This document shows positions 15,155 to 26,973 of a stretch of 48,573 nt of DNA, one piece after another. The translations under genes and the position numbers were made by a program. Numbering within the stretch: the first letter of the stretch is position 1; each line of letters opens with the position of its first letter. Below the pieces are notes generated by a model. The model worked only from the letters and a program-made list of their open reading frames with translations, was not told the DNA's origin and searched no databases. Source of the DNA: Deltaproteobacteria bacterium (GTDB taxonomy: Bacteria > Desulfobacterota > Binatia > JACPRU01); the NCBI GenBank assembly GCA_016189835.1, contig JACPRU010000048.1, positions 1-48,573 of the forward strand. Direction: 5' to 3'.

Positions 15155-16003
15155 CTAGACGATCACCGCGTGCACCAGCTCGCGGATCGCGCCGAGCAGC
15201 TCCGGATCGTCGGAGAGCGGCGCGGCGATCGCCGTCTCGCAGGCGCGTCGCCTCTCCACCCCGCTGGCGACCAGACAGGCAGCGTGCACCAGCAGCCGTG
15301 TGCTCGCCACCTCGACGAGGCCCCGGTCGCGCAGACGCCGCACGCGCTCGGCCAGCCGGACGAGCTCGACGGCCACCGCGCGCTCCACGCCCGCCTCGCG
15401 CCGCACGATCTCGATCTCCTGCTCCGGGGTGGAAAAGTCGAAGTCGAGGGCGACGAAGCGCTGCCGGGTGGATGGCTTCAAATCCTTCATCACGTTCTGG
15501 TAGCCCGGGTTGTACGACACGACGAGCTGGAAGTCGGGGTGCGCCACGACCAGCTCTGCCGCCTTCTCGAGCGGCAGCAGACGCCGGTCGTCGGTGAGCG
15601 GATGGATGGCCACCACCGTATCGGGCCGCGCCTCGACGATCTCGTCGAGATAGCAGATCGCTCCGTCGCGCGCCGCCGTCGTGAGCGGGCCGTCCTGCCA
15701 GACGGTCTCGCCGCCGCGCACGATCCAGCGGCCGGTGAGATCGTTCGCCGAGAGATCGTCGTGGCAGGCGACGGTCACCAGCGGCCGGCCGAGCCGCCAG
15801 GCCATGTGGCGCACGAAGCGGGTCTTGCCGCAGCCGGTCGGGCCCTTGAGCAGGATCGGCAGCCGACGCCGGTGGGCGGCCTCGAACAGCGCGACCTCGT
15901 CGCCGCGCGGCAGATAGAACGGCTCCTCGCGCGGGCGCTCGAGCGCGCCGCCCGCCGGCGGCGGGGCGGCGAGCGGGGCTCCGCTGCGCGCCTCAGCTCG
16001 CAC
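15155..16003 (-). CDS. norQ: NorQ, AAA+ ATPase of the MoxR/CbbQ type
   Basis: 282 residues, GTG start overlapping the norB stop by 11 bp. It has Walker A GPTGCGKT near residue 55, a Walker B-like [12 protein letters not shown], the sensor stretch [25 protein letters not shown] and a C-terminal helical domain. This is characteristic of CbbQ/NirQ/NorQ chaperones, which pair with a VWA protein (here norD) to activate a metalloenzyme (here NO reductase). The first 25 residues are Ala/Pro-rich and not conserved, so a later start is possible. Confidence 0.93.
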
Positions 16004-17339
16004 GGGAGGCCGCGGGGAGACGCTTCGGCGGCCCCGCCGAGACGAAGTCCCAGAGGAACGCGACGGCCCCGCCGGCGAACAGCACGGCGGTGGCCAGCCA
16101 CATCAGATAGTGCACCTGAATCTTCTTCTGGGTCTCGAGGAAGCCGAAGCCCATGATGCGCTCGAGGTACGTCTGGGTGAGGCCCGCCGCGCCGATCGCC
16201 ATGGTCATGCCGAACATGCCGCCGACCATCAGCCAGAAGGCCGCCAGGCCGAGGCGCGTCTGGCGCTGCTCGTCGCGCACGCCGGTGAGCGCCGGCAGCG
16301 CGTAGCTGATGATCGCCAGCACGATCATCGCGTAGGCGCCGAAGAACGCCATGTGCCCGTGCATGGTGGTGATGTGCGTGCCATGCGTCCAGCGGTTCAC
16401 CTGCGGCCAGGTGTGCGCGAAGCCGAGCAGTCCCGCGCCGAGCGTCGAGAACAGCGCCGAGCCGACGGTCCAGTGCACGGCGATCGCGTTGGGATGGCCG
16501 AGACCGGAGCGGCGGATGACGGTGTAGGCGTAAATCGTCATCGCCAGGAAGGCGAGCGGCTCGAGCGCCGAGAACACCCCGCCGATCCACAGCCAGTACG
16601 CGGGAACGCCGATCCAGTAATAGTGATGGCCGGTGCCGAGAATGCCCGAAAGGAACGTGAGGCCGACGATCACGTACAGCCACTTCTCCATCACCTCGCG
16701 ATCGGCCCCCGACAGGCGGATCAGCAGGAACGCGAGGATCGCGCCCATCACCAGCTCCCACACCCCCTCCACCCAGAGGTGAACCACCCACCAGCGGTAG
16801 AAGCGGTCGAGCGTGTAGTTGTCGAAATGGACGAGCCCGGGAAGGAAGAGCAGCGCGGTCGCGGTGAGCCCGCCGATCAGGATTCCTTCGGTGGTGGTGA
16901 ACCGCCCGGCCTGGCGAATCGTCAGCAGCAAGTTGCCGAGGAAGAGCAGCATCACCACCACCACGCCGAACTTGAGCGGTAGCGGCATCTCGAGCAGCTT
17001 GCGTCCCTCGGTGATGCCGAACAGGTAGCCGACGACCGTGGTCACGCCGATCGCGAGCCACAGCGCGAGCTGCACGTAGGCGAGCCGCGTGCTCCAAATC
17101 TCGGTGCGCGACTCCTCGGGCACCATGTAGTAGGCCGCGCCCATGAAGCCGGTGAGGATCCACACCAGCAGCAGATTGGTGTGGATCGCCTTGGTGGTGG
17201 CGAAGTTCATCACGCCGAGCAGCGGGTCGGGACCGAGGAACTTGGCGAGCGAGAGAAAGCCGAAGACGAGCTGCAAGCCGAACAGCAGCACCGCGGCGAG
17301 GAAGTAGGCGTAGGCGACGCGCTGCGAATCGTACGTCAT
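15993..17339 (-). CDS. norB: Nitric oxide reductase large subunit NorB (cytochrome c-dependent type)
   Basis: 448 residues with about 12 membrane helices, the length of classical cNorB. The heme-copper oxidase-family histidines are visible: [11 protein letters not shown] (low-spin heme ligand), [13 protein letters not shown] (FeB site with the extra Glu), [10 protein letters not shown] (FeB His pair) and [17 protein letters not shown] (heme ligands). There is no quinol-oxidising N-terminal extension as in qNor, consistent with the norC gene just upstream (22 bp). It reduces 2 NO to N2O in the cytoplasmic membrane. No nitrite or nitrous oxide reductase is in the window, so a detoxifying role is as likely as full denitrification. 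Confidence 0.96.
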
Positions 17340-18632: not shown

Positions 18633-20033
18633 TCAGTCCGCGCCGGCGATGCCGAGCTCCTCGATCTTGCGGTAGAGCGAGGAGAGACTGACGCCGAGGA
18701 GATCGGCGGCTTTGCGCTTGTCGTTGCCGGTGCGGCCGAGGACGTTCTCGATGTGGCCGCGCTCGTAGGCGCGGATGGCTTCTTTCAGGTTGTCGCCGAC
18801 GGCCGGCAGCGCGGCGCCCTCCTGCGCCACCGCGCGCGGCAGGTCGGCGGGTGTGATCCACTCGCCGTCGCCGAGGATCATCGCGTGCTCGATCGCGTTC
18901 TCGAGCTCGCGGATGTTGCCCTTCCAGGGCAGCGACATCATCAGCTTCATGGTCGCGTTGTTCACTCCCTTGAAGGACTTGTTGAGCTCGACGTTCTGGC
19001 GGCGCACCAGGTACTCGACGAGCTGGGGAACGTCCTCGCGCCGCTCGCGGAGCGGAGGGATCTGGATGTTGACGACGTTCAGCCGATAGTAGAGATCCTC
19101 GCGGAACCGTTGTTCCTCGACCGCCTTGCGCAGATCGCGGTTGGTGGCGGCGAGGATGCGCACGTCGACGCGGACCGGCGTGTTGGAGCCGACGGGCAGG
19201 ACCTCCTTCAGGGCGATCGCGCGCAGCAGCTTCACCTGCAGGTTCGCGGGCAAGTCGCCGATCTCGTCGAGAAAGATCGTGCCGCCGCGTGCCCTCTGGA
19301 AGAGCCCTTCGTTGGCGGCCAGCGCGCCGGTGAACGCCCCCTTGGCGTGCCCGAAGAGCTGGCTCTCGAGGAGGTTCTCGGGGATCGCCGCGCAATTCAC
19401 GGGCAGGAACAGCTTGTCGTGCAGACGGCTGTAATGGTGAATCGCTCGCGCGACGACTTCCTTGCCGACGCCGCTCTCGCCGGTGATGAGCACGGTGCTC
19501 GGCGTGGGAGCGACCTTGCGAATCAGCTCGAGGATCGCGCGCATCGCCGGGCTGCGGCCGATGATCATCTGCTCGAAGTCGTAGCGCGAGTCGAGCTCGC
19601 GCCGCAGCATCTGCGTCTCCCAGGCGAGCTGGCGCACCTCGAACAGCCGGCCGACCTTGCCGAGCACGTCCTCGAGGATCAACGGCTTCAGGATGTAGTC
19701 GTGCGCGCCTTGGCGCAGCGCTTCGACGGCGGTCTCGATGGAGGCGTAGGCGGTGACCAGCAGCACCAGCGTCTGCGGCGCACGCTCGCGGACCCGCCGC
19801 AGCACCGCGAGGCCGTCGGCGCCCGGCATGCGCAGGTCGGTGACGACGACGTCGTAGTCGTTCCCGTCGACGGCCGTCAGCGCTGCCCTGCCGTCCGCCG
19901 CCGTGTCGACCGCGTAGCCCTCCTGGCGGAGGACCTCGGCCAGGCTCTCGCGGATGCTGCTCTCGTCGTCGGCGAGGAGGATCCTGCCCCGGGGAGCGTC
20001 TTCGGTCTTGGGCATCCCCGCTGCTTCTAGCAT
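18633..20033 (-). CDS. NtrC-family sigma-54-dependent response regulator
   Basis: 466 residues. Receiver domain (about 16-130) with acidic pocket ADDE and phospho-acceptor Asp66 (VVTDLRMPG). AAA+ domain (about 155-390) with Walker A GESGVGKE, the sigma-54-contacting GAFTGA loop intact and Walker B GGTIFLDEIGDL. The C-terminal Fis-type helix-turn-helix is NDKRKAADLLGVSLSSLYRKI. It is the cognate partner of the globin-coupled kinase just upstream (28 bp) and the likely activator of the nor genes just downstream (99 bp). That 99-bp gap holds no sigma-54 promoter I can recognise. Starts at 20033 or at the second Met (20015) are both plausible. Confidence 0.93.
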   Translation of the reverse strand: MLEAAGMPKTEDAPRGRILLADDESSIRESLAEVLRQEGYAVDTAADGRAALTAVDGNDYDVVVTDLRMPGADGLAVLRRVRERAPQTLVLLVTAYASIETAVEALRQGAHDYILKPLILEDVLGKVGRLFEVRQLAWETQMLRRELDSRYDFEQMIIGRSPAMRAILELIRKVAPTPSTVLITGESGVGKEVVARAIHHYSRLHDKLFLPVNCAAIPENLLESQLFGHAKGAFTGALAANEGLFQRARGGTIFLDEIGDLPANLQVKLLRAIALKEVLPVGSNTPVRVDVRILAATNRDLRKAVEEQRFREDLYYRLNVVNIQIPPLRERREDVPQLVEYLVRRQNVELNKSFKGVNNATMKLMMSLPWKGNIRELENAIEHAMILGDGEWITPADLPRAVAQEGAALPAVGDNLKEAIRAYERGHIENVLGRTGNDKRKAADLLGVSLSSLYRKIEELGIAGAD

Positions 20034-20061: not shown

Positions 20062-21270
20062 TCACAGCATGGGCAGCGCGATGCTCACCGTCGTTCCCGC
20101 TCCCGGGCGGCTCTCCACGGCGAGTCGCCCGCCGTGCGCGTGCACGATCCATTCGCTCACCACCAACCCGAGCCCTCCTCCGCTCGGTTTGGTGCTGTAG
20201 AAGATGCTGAAGATCTTTCCCTGCTCGGCGGGCGAAATGCCCGGGCCCGTGTCGGACAGGCTCACCACGGCCTCGAGATCCCGCGCGGCGACGGCGACGC
20301 GCAACCGGCCTCCGCCTGGCATCGCCTCGTAGGCATTGGTCGCCACCCGCTCCAAGACCTCGGTCAGCCGGCCGGGATCGGCGAACACCGCGGGGCGGCC
20401 GGACACCTCGCACGAGATCTCGACGGCTCGCTGCGCCGCCCGCGGCTGCTGCTCGGCCACGAAGCGCTCGACGTGCGCGGCCAGCTCGACCGGGCGAAAG
20501 TCGAAATCGAAGCCCCGCGAGTATTCCTGGAACCGGCGGACCAATCGCTCGAGGCGTTTCACCACGCTCGAGATCTGCTCCAGCGTCGCGCTCGCCGACG
20601 CGGCCTCCTCGCCGTCCAGGCGCACGAGCCGCCGGCGCAGCAGCTCGAGGTGCAGGCCGAGGCTGTTCAGGGGATTGCCGATCTCGTGCGCCAGTCTTTG
20701 CGCCGTCGCCTTCAGCGACAGGATCTGCTCCGCGACGGTCTCGCGGTCGCGCGACCGCCACCTGCCGATCCAGCTCTCCTCGTAGGTCGCGAGCAGGATC
20801 GCCAGCTCGAGATCGAGCAGCTTGTCGAGCGAGACGGAGATGGCGGCGGCGCGCTCGGGGGTCTCGGCCAGCTCGCGGAAGATCCGCTCCGCGAGCTCGG
20901 TGCGCAGCACGTTCATGGCCGCGAACACCTGCTCGACCGGCAGTCCCTCCTCGACGTGGCGTCGGTCGACGCCGCGACGCGACGCGAAGTAGGCCTCGTC
21001 GTGACGGCCGGCCACCAGCTCGTCGAGCCAGGAGCGCAGCGTCTCCTTCAGGCGGGAGAGAAAACTCTCCGCGTCGGCGACGAGCGGGTCGGTCCGCGGC
21101 GCATCGAGCACGCAGGCGCGGAAGCGCTCGACGATCTCCTCCCAGCGCGGGGCGAGCACGCGACCCGCCTCGGCGACGTTGGCCACGTCGCGCGCCGAGA
21201 AGTCGACGTGGGTCTTCACTCGATCGAAGAAGTCCTCGCTGGCGACGAACCCGAGCGGTGGCTCCTTCAT
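20062..21270 (-). CDS. Globin-coupled sensor histidine kinase (protoglobin domain)
   Basis: 402 residues from the ATG at 21270 (MKEPPLGF). Residues about 15-165 read as a protoglobin/globin-coupled sensor domain, with the proximal-helix pattern RRGVDRRHVEEGLP; His105 is the probable heme ligand. It is followed by a dimerisation/phospho-acceptor helix (H-box AHEIGNPLNSLG, His195) and a HATPase domain with N-box ATNAYEAMPGGG, G1 DTGPGIS and G2 GGGLGLV. No membrane helix is present, so it is a cytosolic heme sensor of O2 or NO. AfGcHK of Anaeromyxobacter is the known precedent. Its position directly before an NtrC-type regulator and the nor genes argues for NO. The CBS-pair gene ends 17 bp upstream. 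Confidence 0.88.
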   Translation of the reverse strand: MKEPPLGFVASEDFFDRVKTHVDFSARDVANVAEAGRVLAPRWEEIVERFRACVLDAPRTDPLVADAESFLSRLKETLRSWLDELVAGRHDEAYFASRRGVDRRHVEEGLPVEQVFAAMNVLRTELAERIFRELAETPERAAAISVSLDKLLDLELAILLATYEESWIGRWRSRDRETVAEQILSLKATAQRLAHEIGNPLNSLGLHLELLRRRLVRLDGEEAASASATLEQISSVVKRLERLVRRFQEYSRGFDFDFRPVELAAHVERFVAEQQPRAAQRAVEISCEVSGRPAVFADPGRLTEVLERVATNAYEAMPGGGRLRVAVAARDLEAVVSLSDTGPGISPAEQGKIFSIFYSTKPSGGGLGLVVSEWIVHAHGGRLAVESRPGAGTTVSIALPML

Positions 21271-21287
21271 CGACGGGTGGGCGGTGC

Positions 21288-21746
21288 TCAGCACTCGAGG
21301 TCTGCGTCCCGTTCGGTCGCCGCGGGCTCGGCCTTCGACGCCAGCAGATCCCGCAGGCAAAGGAGGCAATCGGTCTCGGTGACGAGGCCGACGAGCCGGC
21401 CGTCCTCCACCACCGGCAGACAGCCGAACTTCTTGCGCACCATCAGATCGACGACCTCGGCGAGCTCGGCGTCCGGGCGCACGCTGGTCACGTCGCTCGA
21501 CATCACCTGACGCACCGGGATCCCCGCCAGCCACTCGCGCTCCGTGCTGCGGCGCAGTCCGAATACCGAGGCGACCGAGGCGCGCAGCAGATCGCGCTGC
21601 GTCAGGATGCCGACCAGGCGCTCGTGCCGGTCCACGATCGGCAGATGACGGATGCGCCCGAGCGCCATCACGTTGTCGACGATGTCCAGGTCGTCATCAA
21701 CGCGAAGCGTCAAGACGTCCTTCTGCATGATGTCCTTGGCTTTCAT
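21288..21746 (-). CDS. CBS-domain pair protein heading the nitric oxide module
   Basis: 152 residues from an ATG preceded by GAGGAG. Two CBS motifs fill the protein: KDIMQKDVLTLRVDDDLDIV with RHLPIVDRHERLVGILTQRDLL, and VMSSDVTSVRPDAELAEVV with FGCLPVVEDGRLVGLVTETDCL. The tail contains a Cys pair (CLLC) and ends DLEC. It probably senses adenine nucleotides. It lies 17 bp before the globin kinase and is the first gene after a sigma-54-like promoter, so it should be co-expressed with the NO-responsive kinase and regulator. Confidence 0.88.
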   Translation of the reverse strand: MKAKDIMQKDVLTLRVDDDLDIVDNVMALGRIRHLPIVDRHERLVGILTQRDLLRASVASVFGLRRSTEREWLAGIPVRQVMSSDVTSVRPDAELAEVVDLMVRKKFGCLPVVEDGRLVGLVTETDCLLCLRDLLASKAEPAATERDADLEC

Positions 21747-21960: not shown

Positions 21961-23154
21961 TCACTTCGCCGGCGGCATTCCCGCCATGTCGATCGGCGCG
22001 TAGTAGTCGCGCTCGCCGAGCGCCTGCACCGCCTGCCAGAATTCGGGCCCGGCGTTCAGCTCGCCGACCGCGCCGGGATCGAGCATCCAATGGTTCCGTC
22101 GATAATTCCAGCTCTCCGGACGCAGCCGCACCGCCTCGGCCAGGTGGCGCTTGGCGGCCTCGAGCCGTCCCGCGCGGTAGAGGAACACGCCGAGGCGATA
22201 TTCGGCAGCCGCGCGCGCGTGCTCGCCGGAGGGGCCGCGCACACGCCGCCGGACCTCCTCGGGTGCGAGCGCGTGCTCGCTGCGGTCTCCCTTCTCGACC
22301 CAGTCGCGCAGCGCATCGACGTAGACGCCGCGGCGCTTGCGGCCGAGCTCCGCCGCCTCGGGCGGAACCGTGAAGGTCGCCATGTCGAGCTTGCGGAAGG
22401 AATCGCCCGCCCCCGCCGGCTCCGCCGGACGGACGATCCGGCCGCGTTCGTCGATCCACACCGCCATCGGCACGTTGACGAGATCATAGAGCTCGGCGAG
22501 GAGATGCCGCTCGTCGATCAGACAGGGGAAGGTCGGCGCCGCGGCCCGCGCGACCAGCTCGGGACCCCAGCCCATCAGCTCCATCATCTCCTTCGGGCGG
22601 CTCGCCAGATCGCTCGGGCGGATCCATTCGCGGACCGCCGCGCCGCCCGCCGTGTCGAGCGCCACGGCGATCATTTCGAGCCCCTTCGGCGCGAGCTCGG
22701 CGTACAGTGCCTGCCAGACCGGCAGGTCGAAGCGGCACCCTCAATACGAGCCCCAGGAGAAGAGCAAGACCTTCTTGCCCCGGGAATCCGACAGCCGATG
22801 CAGCTTGCCGTCGAGATCGGGTAATTCGAAGTCGGGCGCCTCGAGCGAAAGCAGCGCGTCACGCCGGCGGGCGGCCGGAGCGCCGATCGCGACCACGCGG
22901 TTCTCGTCGTCCGTCGCCACCGGCTGCCCGAGGTGGGCGGCGAACCGGGCGAGGTCGATCTCGCCGCTGCTGGAGTCGTACCAGGCGGCGTCCGGCGGCT
23001 CGGGAACGCAGGTTTCGCCTCGACACAGTCCCTGTGGCTTGCGCTCCCATCCGGTGGCGCGAGCCAGCTCGGCGAGCGTCAAGCGAAGCGGGTTACGGTC
23101 GGCGCCCGACAGCGCGAACGGCTGGCGGTCCTCGTAGAGAAGGGTTGCCGTCAT
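21961..23154 (-). CDS. ResA/TlpA-like redox selenoprotein with in-frame UGA (Sec138)
   Basis: 397 residues if the TGA at 22741-22743 is read as selenocysteine. The ATG at 23154 follows GGAGG with 8-base spacing. Residues 1-100 carry a conserved-looking CRGETC segment. A thioredoxin-like redoxin domain begins at about 107 (LEAPDFELPDLDGKLHRL) and reaches its redox motif as WGSY-Sec-GC, then RFDLPVWQALY and, in the same frame, GLEMIAVALDT, which is the next strand of the fold. The tail (about 310-365) looks TPR-like. The frame has exactly one stop, placed where redoxins have their catalytic Cys, and a SECIS-like hairpin follows. No signal peptide is visible, so a cytoplasmic thiol/selenol oxidoreductase is likely. 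The partner and substrate are unknown, and selA/selB are not in the window. Confidence 0.85.
22707..22743 (-). promoter_or_regulatory. Bacterial SECIS element directly after the recoded UGA
   Basis: Numbering the mRNA from U1 of the UGA, GUGCC (6-10) pairs with GGCAC (33-37), GCU (11-13) with GGC (29-31), and GACC (16-19) with GGUC (24-27). The apical loop is UGCC (20-23). The loop begins 17 bases after the UGA and has G as its second base. Both fit the published bSECIS rules (loop 16-37 bases downstream, a G among the first two loop bases). The only irregularities are a bulged A32 and a small internal loop. Confidence 0.75.
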
Positions 23155-23289
23155 GATGGCGTCCTCCGTCGCCATCCTCTTGCACGTTCCGTAGATCCTG
23201 TCACGGGGATTGGAGGCGAAAACGCCATTGCCGTGTTGAAGGTTCGGATACCGGACGGGAAGCATCCGAGCCGGGCGCAGGAGGGCAGC

Positions 23290-23835: not shown

Positions 23836-26800
23836 ATGCGCGCGATGAAGGAGCCCCGGCGGATCGGCCTCGCCTCCCCGCGCTTCTGGAGCTTCCTGGT
23901 GGCGCAGTTCCTCGGCGCGGCCAACGACAACGCGTTCAAGGTGACGCTCGTGCTGCTGATCCTCGCCACCGTCCCCGACGAGGCCACGCAGGTGCTGTAC
24001 TCGAGCTTGGCGACGGCCTTCTTTCCGATCCCGTTTCTGTTGTTCTCGCCGACCGCCGGATACCTGGCCGATCGCTTCCCGAAGCACCGGGTGCTGCTGT
24101 GGACCAAGCTCCCGGAGATCGCCGCCATGAGCCTCGCCACGCTCGGCTTCGCCGCGGCGAGCCTGCCGCTGCTGCTGCTCGCGCTGTTCCTGATGGCCAC
24201 GCACAGCGCGTTCTTCAGCCCCGCGAAGTACGGCATCTTCCCGGAGGTCTTCGACAACCAGGACCTGTCGCTCGCCAACGGCATCCTCGAGCTGGCCACC
24301 AACCTGGCGATCCTCGCCGGGTCGATCGCGGGGGTCTACGTGTACAGCCTGTTCAAGACGACGCTCGCCTCGTGCGGCCTCACCTACGTCGCGGTGGCCG
24401 TGGCGGGCACCGCCGCGGTGCTGTTCGCGCCGCGCGCCCCGGCGGGAAACCCGAGCGCGCAGCTCGCCTGGAACCCGCTCGGCTCGGTGCGCCGCGACTG
24501 GCGGGAGGCGAGGAAGCGGCCCGTGCTCGTCTACACGCTGGTCGGCATCGCCTACTTCGGTTTCCTCGGGTCGCTGTTCCTCACGTTGATTCCGGTCTTC
24601 GGCAAGAACGTTCTCCGCCTCCCTGAGGAGCACGCCGGGATTCTGCTCGCCGTGCTGTCGATCGGCATCGCCGCCGGAGCGGTGATCGCCGGGCGGCTGT
24701 CGCGCGGCCACGTGGAGATCGGCCTGGTGCCGCTCGGCAGCCTCGGCATCTCGCTCTGCGCCTTCGACCTGGGACTGTTCGGCGGCGGCTCGTGGCGGCC
24801 GGCGCTCGGCGTGCCGGCCCGCGCCGCGGTCGATCTGGTGCTGCTCGGCCTCGCCGCCGGCTGCTTCATCGTGCCGCTCAACTCGCTGCTCCAGCAGCGC
24901 AGTCCCGAGGGCATGAAGGGGCGGCTGATCGCGTTCTCCAACGTGCTCACCTTCGCCGCCGTGCTCTGCGCGGCCGTGGTGCCGTGGTTCCTGACCGGCG
25001 TGCTCGGCCTGACCACCGCGCAGGTGATCCTGTCGAGCGCCTTTCTCACCGTGGGCGGCTCGCTCTACGTGATGAACCTGCTGCCCGACTTCCTGGTCCG
25101 GCTGATCCTGTGGCTCGCCACCAACACGATCTACCGGGTGCGCACCGTCGGCGCGGAGAACATCCCCCGCGAGGGCGCGCTGTTCGTCGCCAACCACGGC
25201 TCCTGGGTCGACTTCCTGCTGATCGGCGCCGCCTGCGACCGGATGATCCGCTTCTTGATGTTCCGCAAGTACTACGAGTGGCCCGCGCTCCACTGGTTCT
25301 TCCGCCGCATGGGCGTGATCCCGGTGGCCGGCGGCGATCCGCCGCACAGGACCGAGGAGTCGCTGGCGATCGCCGGCGAGCAGATCCGGCAGGGCCACAC
25401 CGTGTGCATCTTCGCCGAGGGCGCGATCACCCGCACCGGCAACCTGCTCCCGTTCCGGCGCGGCTTCGAGCGCATCGCCGCCCACGCCCGATGCCCGATC
25501 GTGCCGATCTACGTCGACGGCGTCTGGGGGAGCATCTTCAGCTACGCGGGCGGCCGGTTCTTCTTCAAGCGGCCCAAGGGGCTGCGCCGGCCGATCACCG
25601 TGGTGTTCGGAACGCCGCTGGCGCCGACCGCGAAGGCGCACGAGGTGCGCGCCCGCATCCAGGAGCTGTCGGTGGAGGCGTTCGCGCTGCGCAAGCGGCG
25701 CCGGCGCCCGCTGGCGGTCGAGTGGCTGCGTGTGGTCGGCCGCTGCTGGAGTCGCCCGCAGCTCGTCGACGCCGCGGGCTCGCTCAGCTTCGGACGGACG
25801 CTGCGCCGGGCGCTGGCCTTGCGTCACGCGCTCTACGGCCGGACGCGCGGCGACGAGACCGTCGGTATCCTGCTGCCGCCCGGCATACCGGCGGCGCTCG
25901 CCAACTTCGCCACCGCGCTCGCCGGCCGCATCCCCGTGAACCTCGACGCCACGCCGCCCGGCGCCATCGCCCGCTCGATGGTCGAGACCGCGGAGATCTC
26001 GACCGTACTGTCGAACCGGTCCTATCTCGACGAGGTCGGGCTCGCCGCGGCGCTCGAGGGCCGGCGCATCGTCGACGTCGAGGCGGCGATCGCCGCCCTG
26101 CGGCCCTCGCCGCTCGCCGGCCTCGCCGCTCGCCTGCTGCCGGCCTCGCTCGCCGCCCGCTGGATCGTGCGTGGCGACCGGCGCGACGTCGATCGCACGG
26201 CGACGATCCTGTTCTCGTATCCCGCGGAAGCGCCGAACGAGCCGCGCGGAGCGGTGCTGTCGCATCACAATCTGCTATCCAATCTCGACGCCTTGCGTCA
26301 GGTCCTGGAGGTCAGCGAAGACGACGCGATCCTCGCGCTCCTGCCGTTCTCCAACGCCATGAGCTTCGCGACCTCGCTGTGGCTGCCGGCGCTCGCCGGC
26401 GCGCGCGCGGTCTACGGGCTGGCGCCGCGAGGGGGCCTGCTCGGCGAGCTGGTCGCCGAACAGCGGATCACGCTGCTGGCGCTGAGTCCGGCGCTGCTCG
26501 CGCTCGTCTGCGGGCAGCTCGAGCGCGCGCAGCTTCCCGCCCTGCGCTTCGCCGCGGCCGGCGGCGAGGACTTGCCCGAGGCGCTGCGGCAAGCGTTCAC
26601 CGCCAAGTTCGGCGTCGAACCGCTCGAGGGCTACGGACGGCCCGAGTGCGCGCCGATCGTCTCGCTCAACGTCCCCGACGTGGAGCATGGCCGCGAGCGA
26701 CAGGCGGGGGCGCGTCCGGGCACCACCGGGCATCCGCTGCCCGGCGTCTCGGTGCGCATCGTCGATCCGCTGAGCGGGCGGGTGCTGCCGCCGGGCAACG

Positions 26801-26973
26801 ACGGCATCCTCTGGGTGCGCGGCCCCAACGTCATGAAGGGCTACGCGAAACGCCCCGGCGAGACCGCCGCCGTGCTGCGCGACGGCTGGTACGTGACCGG
26901 GGATCGCGCGCGGCTCGACGACGACGGCTTCCTCACCGTCTACTTCCCGCAGCCTCCGGGCCCGGCGGCCTGA
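23836..26973 (+). CDS. MFS transporter-PlsC acyltransferase-AMP-ligase fusion (LplT/Aas type), truncated C-terminus
   Basis: 1045 residues. Residues 1-405 are a 12-helix MFS transporter resembling LplT (AANDNAFKVTLVLL). Residues about 425-610 are a PlsC-type acyltransferase with the catalytic HX4D motif (NHGSWVD) and FAEGAITRTGNL. Residues about 640-1045 belong to the AMP-dependent synthetase superfamily. In E. coli the equivalent LplT and Aas re-acylate lyso-phosphatidylethanolamine. The ligase part looks degenerate: the phosphate loop normally reading TSGS/T-x-G-x-PKG is here SYPAEAPNEPRG, and the protein stops soon after YVTGDRARLDDDGF. The C-terminal subdomain with the A8 hinge and the A10 catalytic Lys is therefore missing. 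Starts at 23836 or 23845 are both possible. Confidence 0.9.
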   Translation: MRAMKEPRRIGLASPRFWSFLVAQFLGAANDNAFKVTLVLLILATVPDEATQVLYSSLATAFFPIPFLLFSPTAGYLADRFPKHRVLLWTKLPEIAAMSLATLGFAAASLPLLLLALFLMATHSAFFSPAKYGIFPEVFDNQDLSLANGILELATNLAILAGSIAGVYVYSLFKTTLASCGLTYVAVAVAGTAAVLFAPRAPAGNPSAQLAWNPLGSVRRDWREARKRPVLVYTLVGIAYFGFLGSLFLTLIPVFGKNVLRLPEEHAGILLAVLSIGIAAGAVIAGRLSRGHVEIGLVPLGSLGISLCAFDLGLFGGGSWRPALGVPARAAVDLVLLGLAAGCFIVPLNSLLQQRSPEGMKGRLIAFSNVLTFAAVLCAAVVPWFLTGVLGLTTAQVILSSAFLTVGGSLYVMNLLPDFLVRLILWLATNTIYRVRTVGAENIPREGALFVANHGSWVDFLLIGAACDRMIRFLMFRKYYEWPALHWFFRRMGVIPVAGGDPPHRTEESLAIAGEQIRQGHTVCIFAEGAITRTGNLLPFRRGFERIAAHARCPIVPIYVDGVWGSIFSYAGGRFFFKRPKGLRRPITVVFGTPLAPTAKAHEVRARIQELSVEAFALRKRRRRPLAVEWLRVVGRCWSRPQLVDAAGSLSFGRTLRRALALRHALYGRTRGDETVGILLPPGIPAALANFATALAGRIPVNLDATPPGAIARSMVETAEISTVLSNRSYLDEVGLAAALEGRRIVDVEAAIAALRPSPLAGLAARLLPASLAARWIVRGDRRDVDRTATILFSYPAEAPNEPRGAVLSHHNLLSNLDALRQVLEVSEDDAILALLPFSNAMSFATSLWLPALAGARAVYGLAPRGGLLGELVAEQRITLLALSPALLALVCGQLERAQLPALRFAAAGGEDLPEALRQAFTAKFGVEPLEGYGRPECAPIVSLNVPDVEHGRERQAGARPGTTGHPLPGVSVRIVDPLSGRVLPPGNDGILWVRGPNVMKGYAKRPGETAAVLRDGWYVTGDRARLDDDGFLTVYFPQPPGPAA

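Follow-up and report, generated by a model that had tools for sequence, protein, structure and literature searches.

Thiol-disulfide oxidoreductases of the ResA, StoA, and TlpA type are CxxC proteins that are exported or membrane-bound. A ResA-like family with the motif UGC, in which U is selenocysteine (Sec), is held in NCBIfam as NF041054 (WAxxUGC_long, "ResA-like WAxxUGC motif-containing protein"), a curated equivalog. In addition, lists of prokaryotic selenoproteins have, from 2008 on, carried a "UGC-containing" Prx-like/TlpA-like entry (PMC2398784, PMC9312934, PMC13188914), which, compared by motif and domain description, is likely the same family as NF041054. In the literature that we searched, we found no paper on the biochemistry of NF041054, and a search on the name "WAxxUGC" returned no paper.

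Here, we analyzed a 48,573-nucleotide stretch of DNA (hereafter, the window) from a Deltaproteobacteria bacterium and identified a gene that, judging from its sequence and that of its relatives, encodes with high probability a Sec-containing redox protein of the NF041054 family. This high confidence applies to the selenoprotein and family assignment, the mechanistic steps discussed below being excluded. A reading of the window made from its sequence only had regarded the protein as probably undescribed or little studied; given the NCBIfam entry and the selenoprotein lists cited above, the family is already catalogued, and the window gene is a sound member of it.

The gene occupies the minus strand as a single 397-codon frame, opening with the ATG at 23154 and closing with the TGA at 21963-21961, with codon 138 (TGA) as the sole internal stop (Table 1). 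The sequence-only reading described it as two minus-strand frames in the same phase, split by one TGA, the 66 bases leading to the next ATG (22674) being free of further stops. Both its coordinates and its description proved exact. GC content at the 3 codon positions is similar along the frame, with values of 0.72/0.52/0.85 upstream of the TGA, 0.77/0.46/0.91 in the 66-base gap, and 0.77/0.50/0.89 beyond it, from which it follows that coding runs on in the same frame. A sequencing error, which had also been considered, is ruled out by the presence of the same TGA in dozens of independent assemblies.

Table 1. Coordinates of the selenoprotein gene and its features within the window.
Feature	Position	Strand	Basis
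Predicted selenoprotein gene, NF041054 member; 397 codons, TGA 138 read as Sec	21961..23154	-	Profile, homologs, fold model
UGA codon 138 (WGSY-U-GC), predicted Sec where the first active-site Cys would stand	22741..22743	-	Homolog alignment
GGAGG ribosome-binding site, 8 bases upstream of the ATG	23163..23167	-	Inspection
N-terminal beta/alpha domain, residues 1-97	22864..23154	-	Model; no Pfam or PDB relative
CRGETC, residues 44-49, invariant CxxxxC Cys pair	23008..23025	-	Cys44 and Cys49 present in 60 of 60 aligned sequences
Thioredoxin-like domain of the ResA/AhpC-TSA type with U138-G-C140, residues 104-246	22417..22845	-	Pfam, PDB, model
C-terminal helical TPR-like tail, residues 265-378	22021..22362	-	Pfam, model
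SECIS-like hairpin of the bacterial type (CCTGCC-GGTCT-GGCAGG), 17-33 bases downstream of the T of the TGA	22710..22726	-	Stem conservation

When translated through the TGA, the protein scores 326 bits against NF041054 (cut-off 300), with the match covering positions 8-157 and 158-353 of the 354-position profile in 2 adjoining pieces that span the junction, and the same profile is matched by all 60 aligned relatives. Codons 138-140 read TGA-G-C, that is, UGC with the Sec codon at the first catalytic position. The literal WA of the family name is absent, the window reading WGSYUGC; membership is curated by profile score, and here the score lies above the cut-off. The earlier proposal, that of a ResA-like WAxxUGC redox selenoprotein in which WG replaces WA, is supported by the checks it had named, namely Cys homologs across the junction, selA, selB, and selD in the genome, and conservation of the TGA, as described below. 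This substitution is a variant of a small clade and is not confined to the window: WGSY is common to the window and 7 sequences from proteobacterial metagenome-assembled genomes (L098, L101-L103, and L105-L107), which, together with L104, a Rubrobacter-labelled metagenome-assembled genome with WASW, form one supported set of 9 in the tree (100/96). The ResA profile NF002854 yields 63 bits against a cut-off of 170, and with U-x-C instead of CxxC the protein falls outside ResA proper.

A homolog (E up to 1e-25) was detected in 50 of the 148 genomes of the class to which the window's genome belongs; the match contains a TGA in 49 of them and Cys in the remaining one (G092). As this search used the whole protein, it is free of selection for the motifs SWCGCR and CxxxxC. 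Across one genome per species (84,980 species), a wider scan recovered 80 loci, 79 of them readable at the site, and the codon is TGA in 74 and Cys in 5, with the GC of UGC invariant; these counts stem from a pattern search (SWCGCR among others) with an upstream CxxxxC required at reading, so that conservation there is somewhat favored. The alignment with these 74 TGA and 5 Cys homologs supports Sec at the position of the first catalytic Cys, as had been proposed, and the Cys homologs across the junction that the sequence-only reading had called for include those 5 of 79 loci. Chance is excluded, since homologs match over the junction and their codon at this site is either TGA or one for Cys. 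In the tree, Cys forms sit at no fewer than 4 separate points among the Sec forms, which is the pattern that Sec/Cys exchange would produce.

By record title, the family extends over about 8 phyla: Pseudomonadota, Binatota, Rokuibacteriota, Chloroflexota, Myxococcota, Actinomycetota, Acidobacteriota, and SAR324. Alphaproteobacterial members include those of Reyranella and Desertibaculum. Seven genomes of the class (G411, G413, G425, G440, G441, G452, and G463) contain at least 2 copies of the gene, a longer and a shorter form that differ in a loop near residues 180-202. Family genes are also present in metagenome bins that bear the name Klebsiella pneumoniae or Bordetella parapertussis (L099, L107, L125, and L137); these names are probably wrong, L107 and L137 grouping with environmental lineages in the tree. 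One further locus (L028, G056:C1:796780-797253) holds a frame of the redoxin type that resembles the family profile and contains one in-frame TAG. No full-length relative was found in the plasmid collection searched.

Downstream of codon 138, all 5 tested stem pairs of the hairpin are kept, with G-U pairs allowed, in 97 of 97 different UGA-form sequences. When synonymous codons were drawn from the same genes in 2,000 trials, the full stem was obtained on average in 37 and never in more than 53 of the 97; in a set thinned to 66 sequences less than 80% identical, it is present in all 66, compared to a null mean of 26 and maximum of 40. Within the stem, Leu is encoded by xTG in 100% of the sequences, compared with 0.24 to 0.82 in other conserved Leu columns, and where Ser replaces Pro, its codon is TCC or TCG and a G-U pair is retained. 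Such conservation beyond synonymous-codon expectation marks the hairpin, at the level of sequence, as a constrained SECIS-like element. Three of the 6 Cys forms lack 1 or 2 stem pairs, a difference from the UGA forms that, with so small a sample, is suggestive. Rfam gave no match over the window; to our knowledge, a general model for bacterial SECIS elements is not part of it.

The sequence-only reading had also proposed a search for selA, selB, selC, and selD, which was answered for 3 of the 4 genes: selA (507 bits), selB (388 bits), and selD (387 bits) are neighbors on contig C5 of the same genome, and selC, sought in 3 ways with both strict and loose patterns, was not found in this assembly, which is 75% complete. 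Two candidates for selC were rejected, an RF01852 match of 48.7 bits being a tRNA-Ser(TGA) and the other a tRNA-Cys. tRNA-Sec is present in the relatives G121, G243, G323, G018, and G450. The selD gene adjoining selB and selA (C5:16898-17815, minus strand; 1501-2418 of L014) has itself an in-frame TGA, within SAGUAAKL, making SelD a probable second selenoprotein of the UGA type. Among the 49 UGA-form genomes of the class, 45 have selA, and G450, one of the other 4, has tRNA-Sec; selA is also found in 78 of the 98 class genomes without the family gene, so that its co-occurrence with the UGA form amounts to consistency and not to a strong association. The sole Cys-form genome of the class, G092, which is 100% complete, has neither selA nor tRNA-Sec.

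These results bear on 2 readings that dispense with Sec. If UGA 138 were an ordinary stop, the locus would be a pseudogene or 2 genes, with the frame 22674-21961 translated alone, in keeping with the 2 open reading frames given by translation table 11 and with the failure to find selC in the assembly. However, such a stop would cut the thioredoxin domain in half, and it has to be set against a TGA kept in dozens of independent genomes, a downstream protein that is conserved, a constrained SECIS-like stem, and the presence of selA, selB, and selD; we therefore consider it very improbable. No more weight can be given to a reading of UGA as Trp or Cys through a reassigned code or suppression. Cys exchange alone would fit a UGA-to-Cys reading too, but the window gene itself terminates in TGA, which is thus still a stop, the genome encodes Sec machinery and a Sec-type SelD, a constrained hairpin would be needless, and the Cys-form genome G092 lacks selA.

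With codon 138 read as Sec, the full-length protein is modeled by AlphaFold, with Cys in place of Sec, as a single confident fold (pLDDT 94.8, pTM 0.93). Pfam recognizes AhpC-TSA (PF00578; 53.7 bits, gathering cut-off 26), Redoxin (33.5 bits), and, weakly, TPR in the protein, the central part of which resembles ResA (TMt about 0.75-0.78), with matches to ResA, StoA, and TlpA structures. In the HMMER alignment to 3kcm, there is one residue fewer between the 2 catalytic positions, and U-x-C thus takes the place of CxxC. The N-terminal domain on its own also folds compactly (pLDDT 90.6) and had no significant match to Pfam, PDB sequences, or PDB folds; its matches listed in the class coincide with genes of the NF041054 family. 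A likeness to copper-amine-oxidase-like N-domains, proposed from the order of strands and helices, was supported by no search and was dropped. Cys44 and Cys49 are conserved even in the Cys forms, and TPR matches recur among relatives, so that the CRGETC region and the TPR-like tail, which had been regarded as unusual, are family-wide. By inspection, the N-terminus (MTATLLYEDRQ) is without a signal or membrane segment, and the protein is therefore probably cytoplasmic.

From established knowledge, SelB and Sec-tRNA would bind the hairpin and insert Sec, yielding one 397-residue selenoprotein. In a thioredoxin-fold thiol/selenol oxidoreductase of this kind, the Sec138 selenolate would probably be the attacking group, to be resolved by Cys140 as a U-x-C selenenylsulfide, the motif having one residue fewer than CxxC. 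More tentatively, Cys44 and Cys49 might serve as a built-in second dithiol passing electrons to or from Sec138, with the TPR-like tail binding a partner. The N-terminal domain could then be an uncharacterized redox module whose invariant CxxxxC dithiol, fused to a U-x-C selenothioredoxin, would form a two-step electron relay in one cytoplasmic polypeptide, one end of the relay being selenium, a proposal we advance with caution. Candidate substrate classes are peroxides, protein disulfides, and electrophiles.

A different function with Sec kept, that of a selenium-dependent, peroxiredoxin-like peroxidase rather than a thiol:disulfide oxidoreductase, is possible, if on balance doubtful. Sec favors peroxide chemistry, and the AhpC-TSA and Redoxin scores point in the same direction. 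The name "Prx-like" given to the UGC family in the literature (PMC2398784, PMC9312934) agrees with them. Nevertheless, the nearest solved folds and profiles are those of the thiol-disulfide proteins ResA, StoA, and TlpA, and models of PrxQ and thiol peroxidase score far lower. The active-site motif of peroxiredoxins is PxxxT/SxxC; it is absent on inspection from the window protein, where the site reads SWGSYUGCR.

As for a partner, none is inferred, because the commonest shared neighbor across the loci of the wide scan, a short-chain dehydrogenase, is found in only 12 of them; nor does any conserved neighbor hint at a substrate. In the window, the genes downstream of the selenoprotein gene include, all on the minus strand, a protoglobin-histidine kinase (20062-21534), a sigma-54 response regulator (18633-20033), and a COX1-type oxidase subunit (15993-17339), possibly together a gas-sensing regulator of a respiratory oxidase. 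Upstream, on the opposite (plus) strand, lies a fused MFS transporter/acyltransferase/AMP-binding ligase of 1,045 amino acids (23836-26973).

Gene finders split the window protein in two. Being widespread and mostly in the Sec form, the family may make substantial use of selenium in environmental bacteria, and clear testable predictions follow from the constraint on the hairpin, from the recurrent replacement of Sec by Cys, and from the second dithiol, which is invariant.

Compared with known systems, the window protein shares the thioredoxin-like fold of the ResA, StoA, and TlpA oxidoreductases, but has U-x-C at its site, no N-terminal hydrophobic signal, and extra N- and C-terminal domains. 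The literature "UGC-containing" Prx-like/TlpA selenoprotein likewise has a domain of the AhpC-TSA/TlpA type that bears the UGC Sec motif. Closest is NF041054 itself, with the same domain order, the same UGC motif, and nearly the whole profile matched, from which the window protein differs by WGSY for WAxx before UGC and, relative to the short-form members, by a longer loop of about 20 residues.
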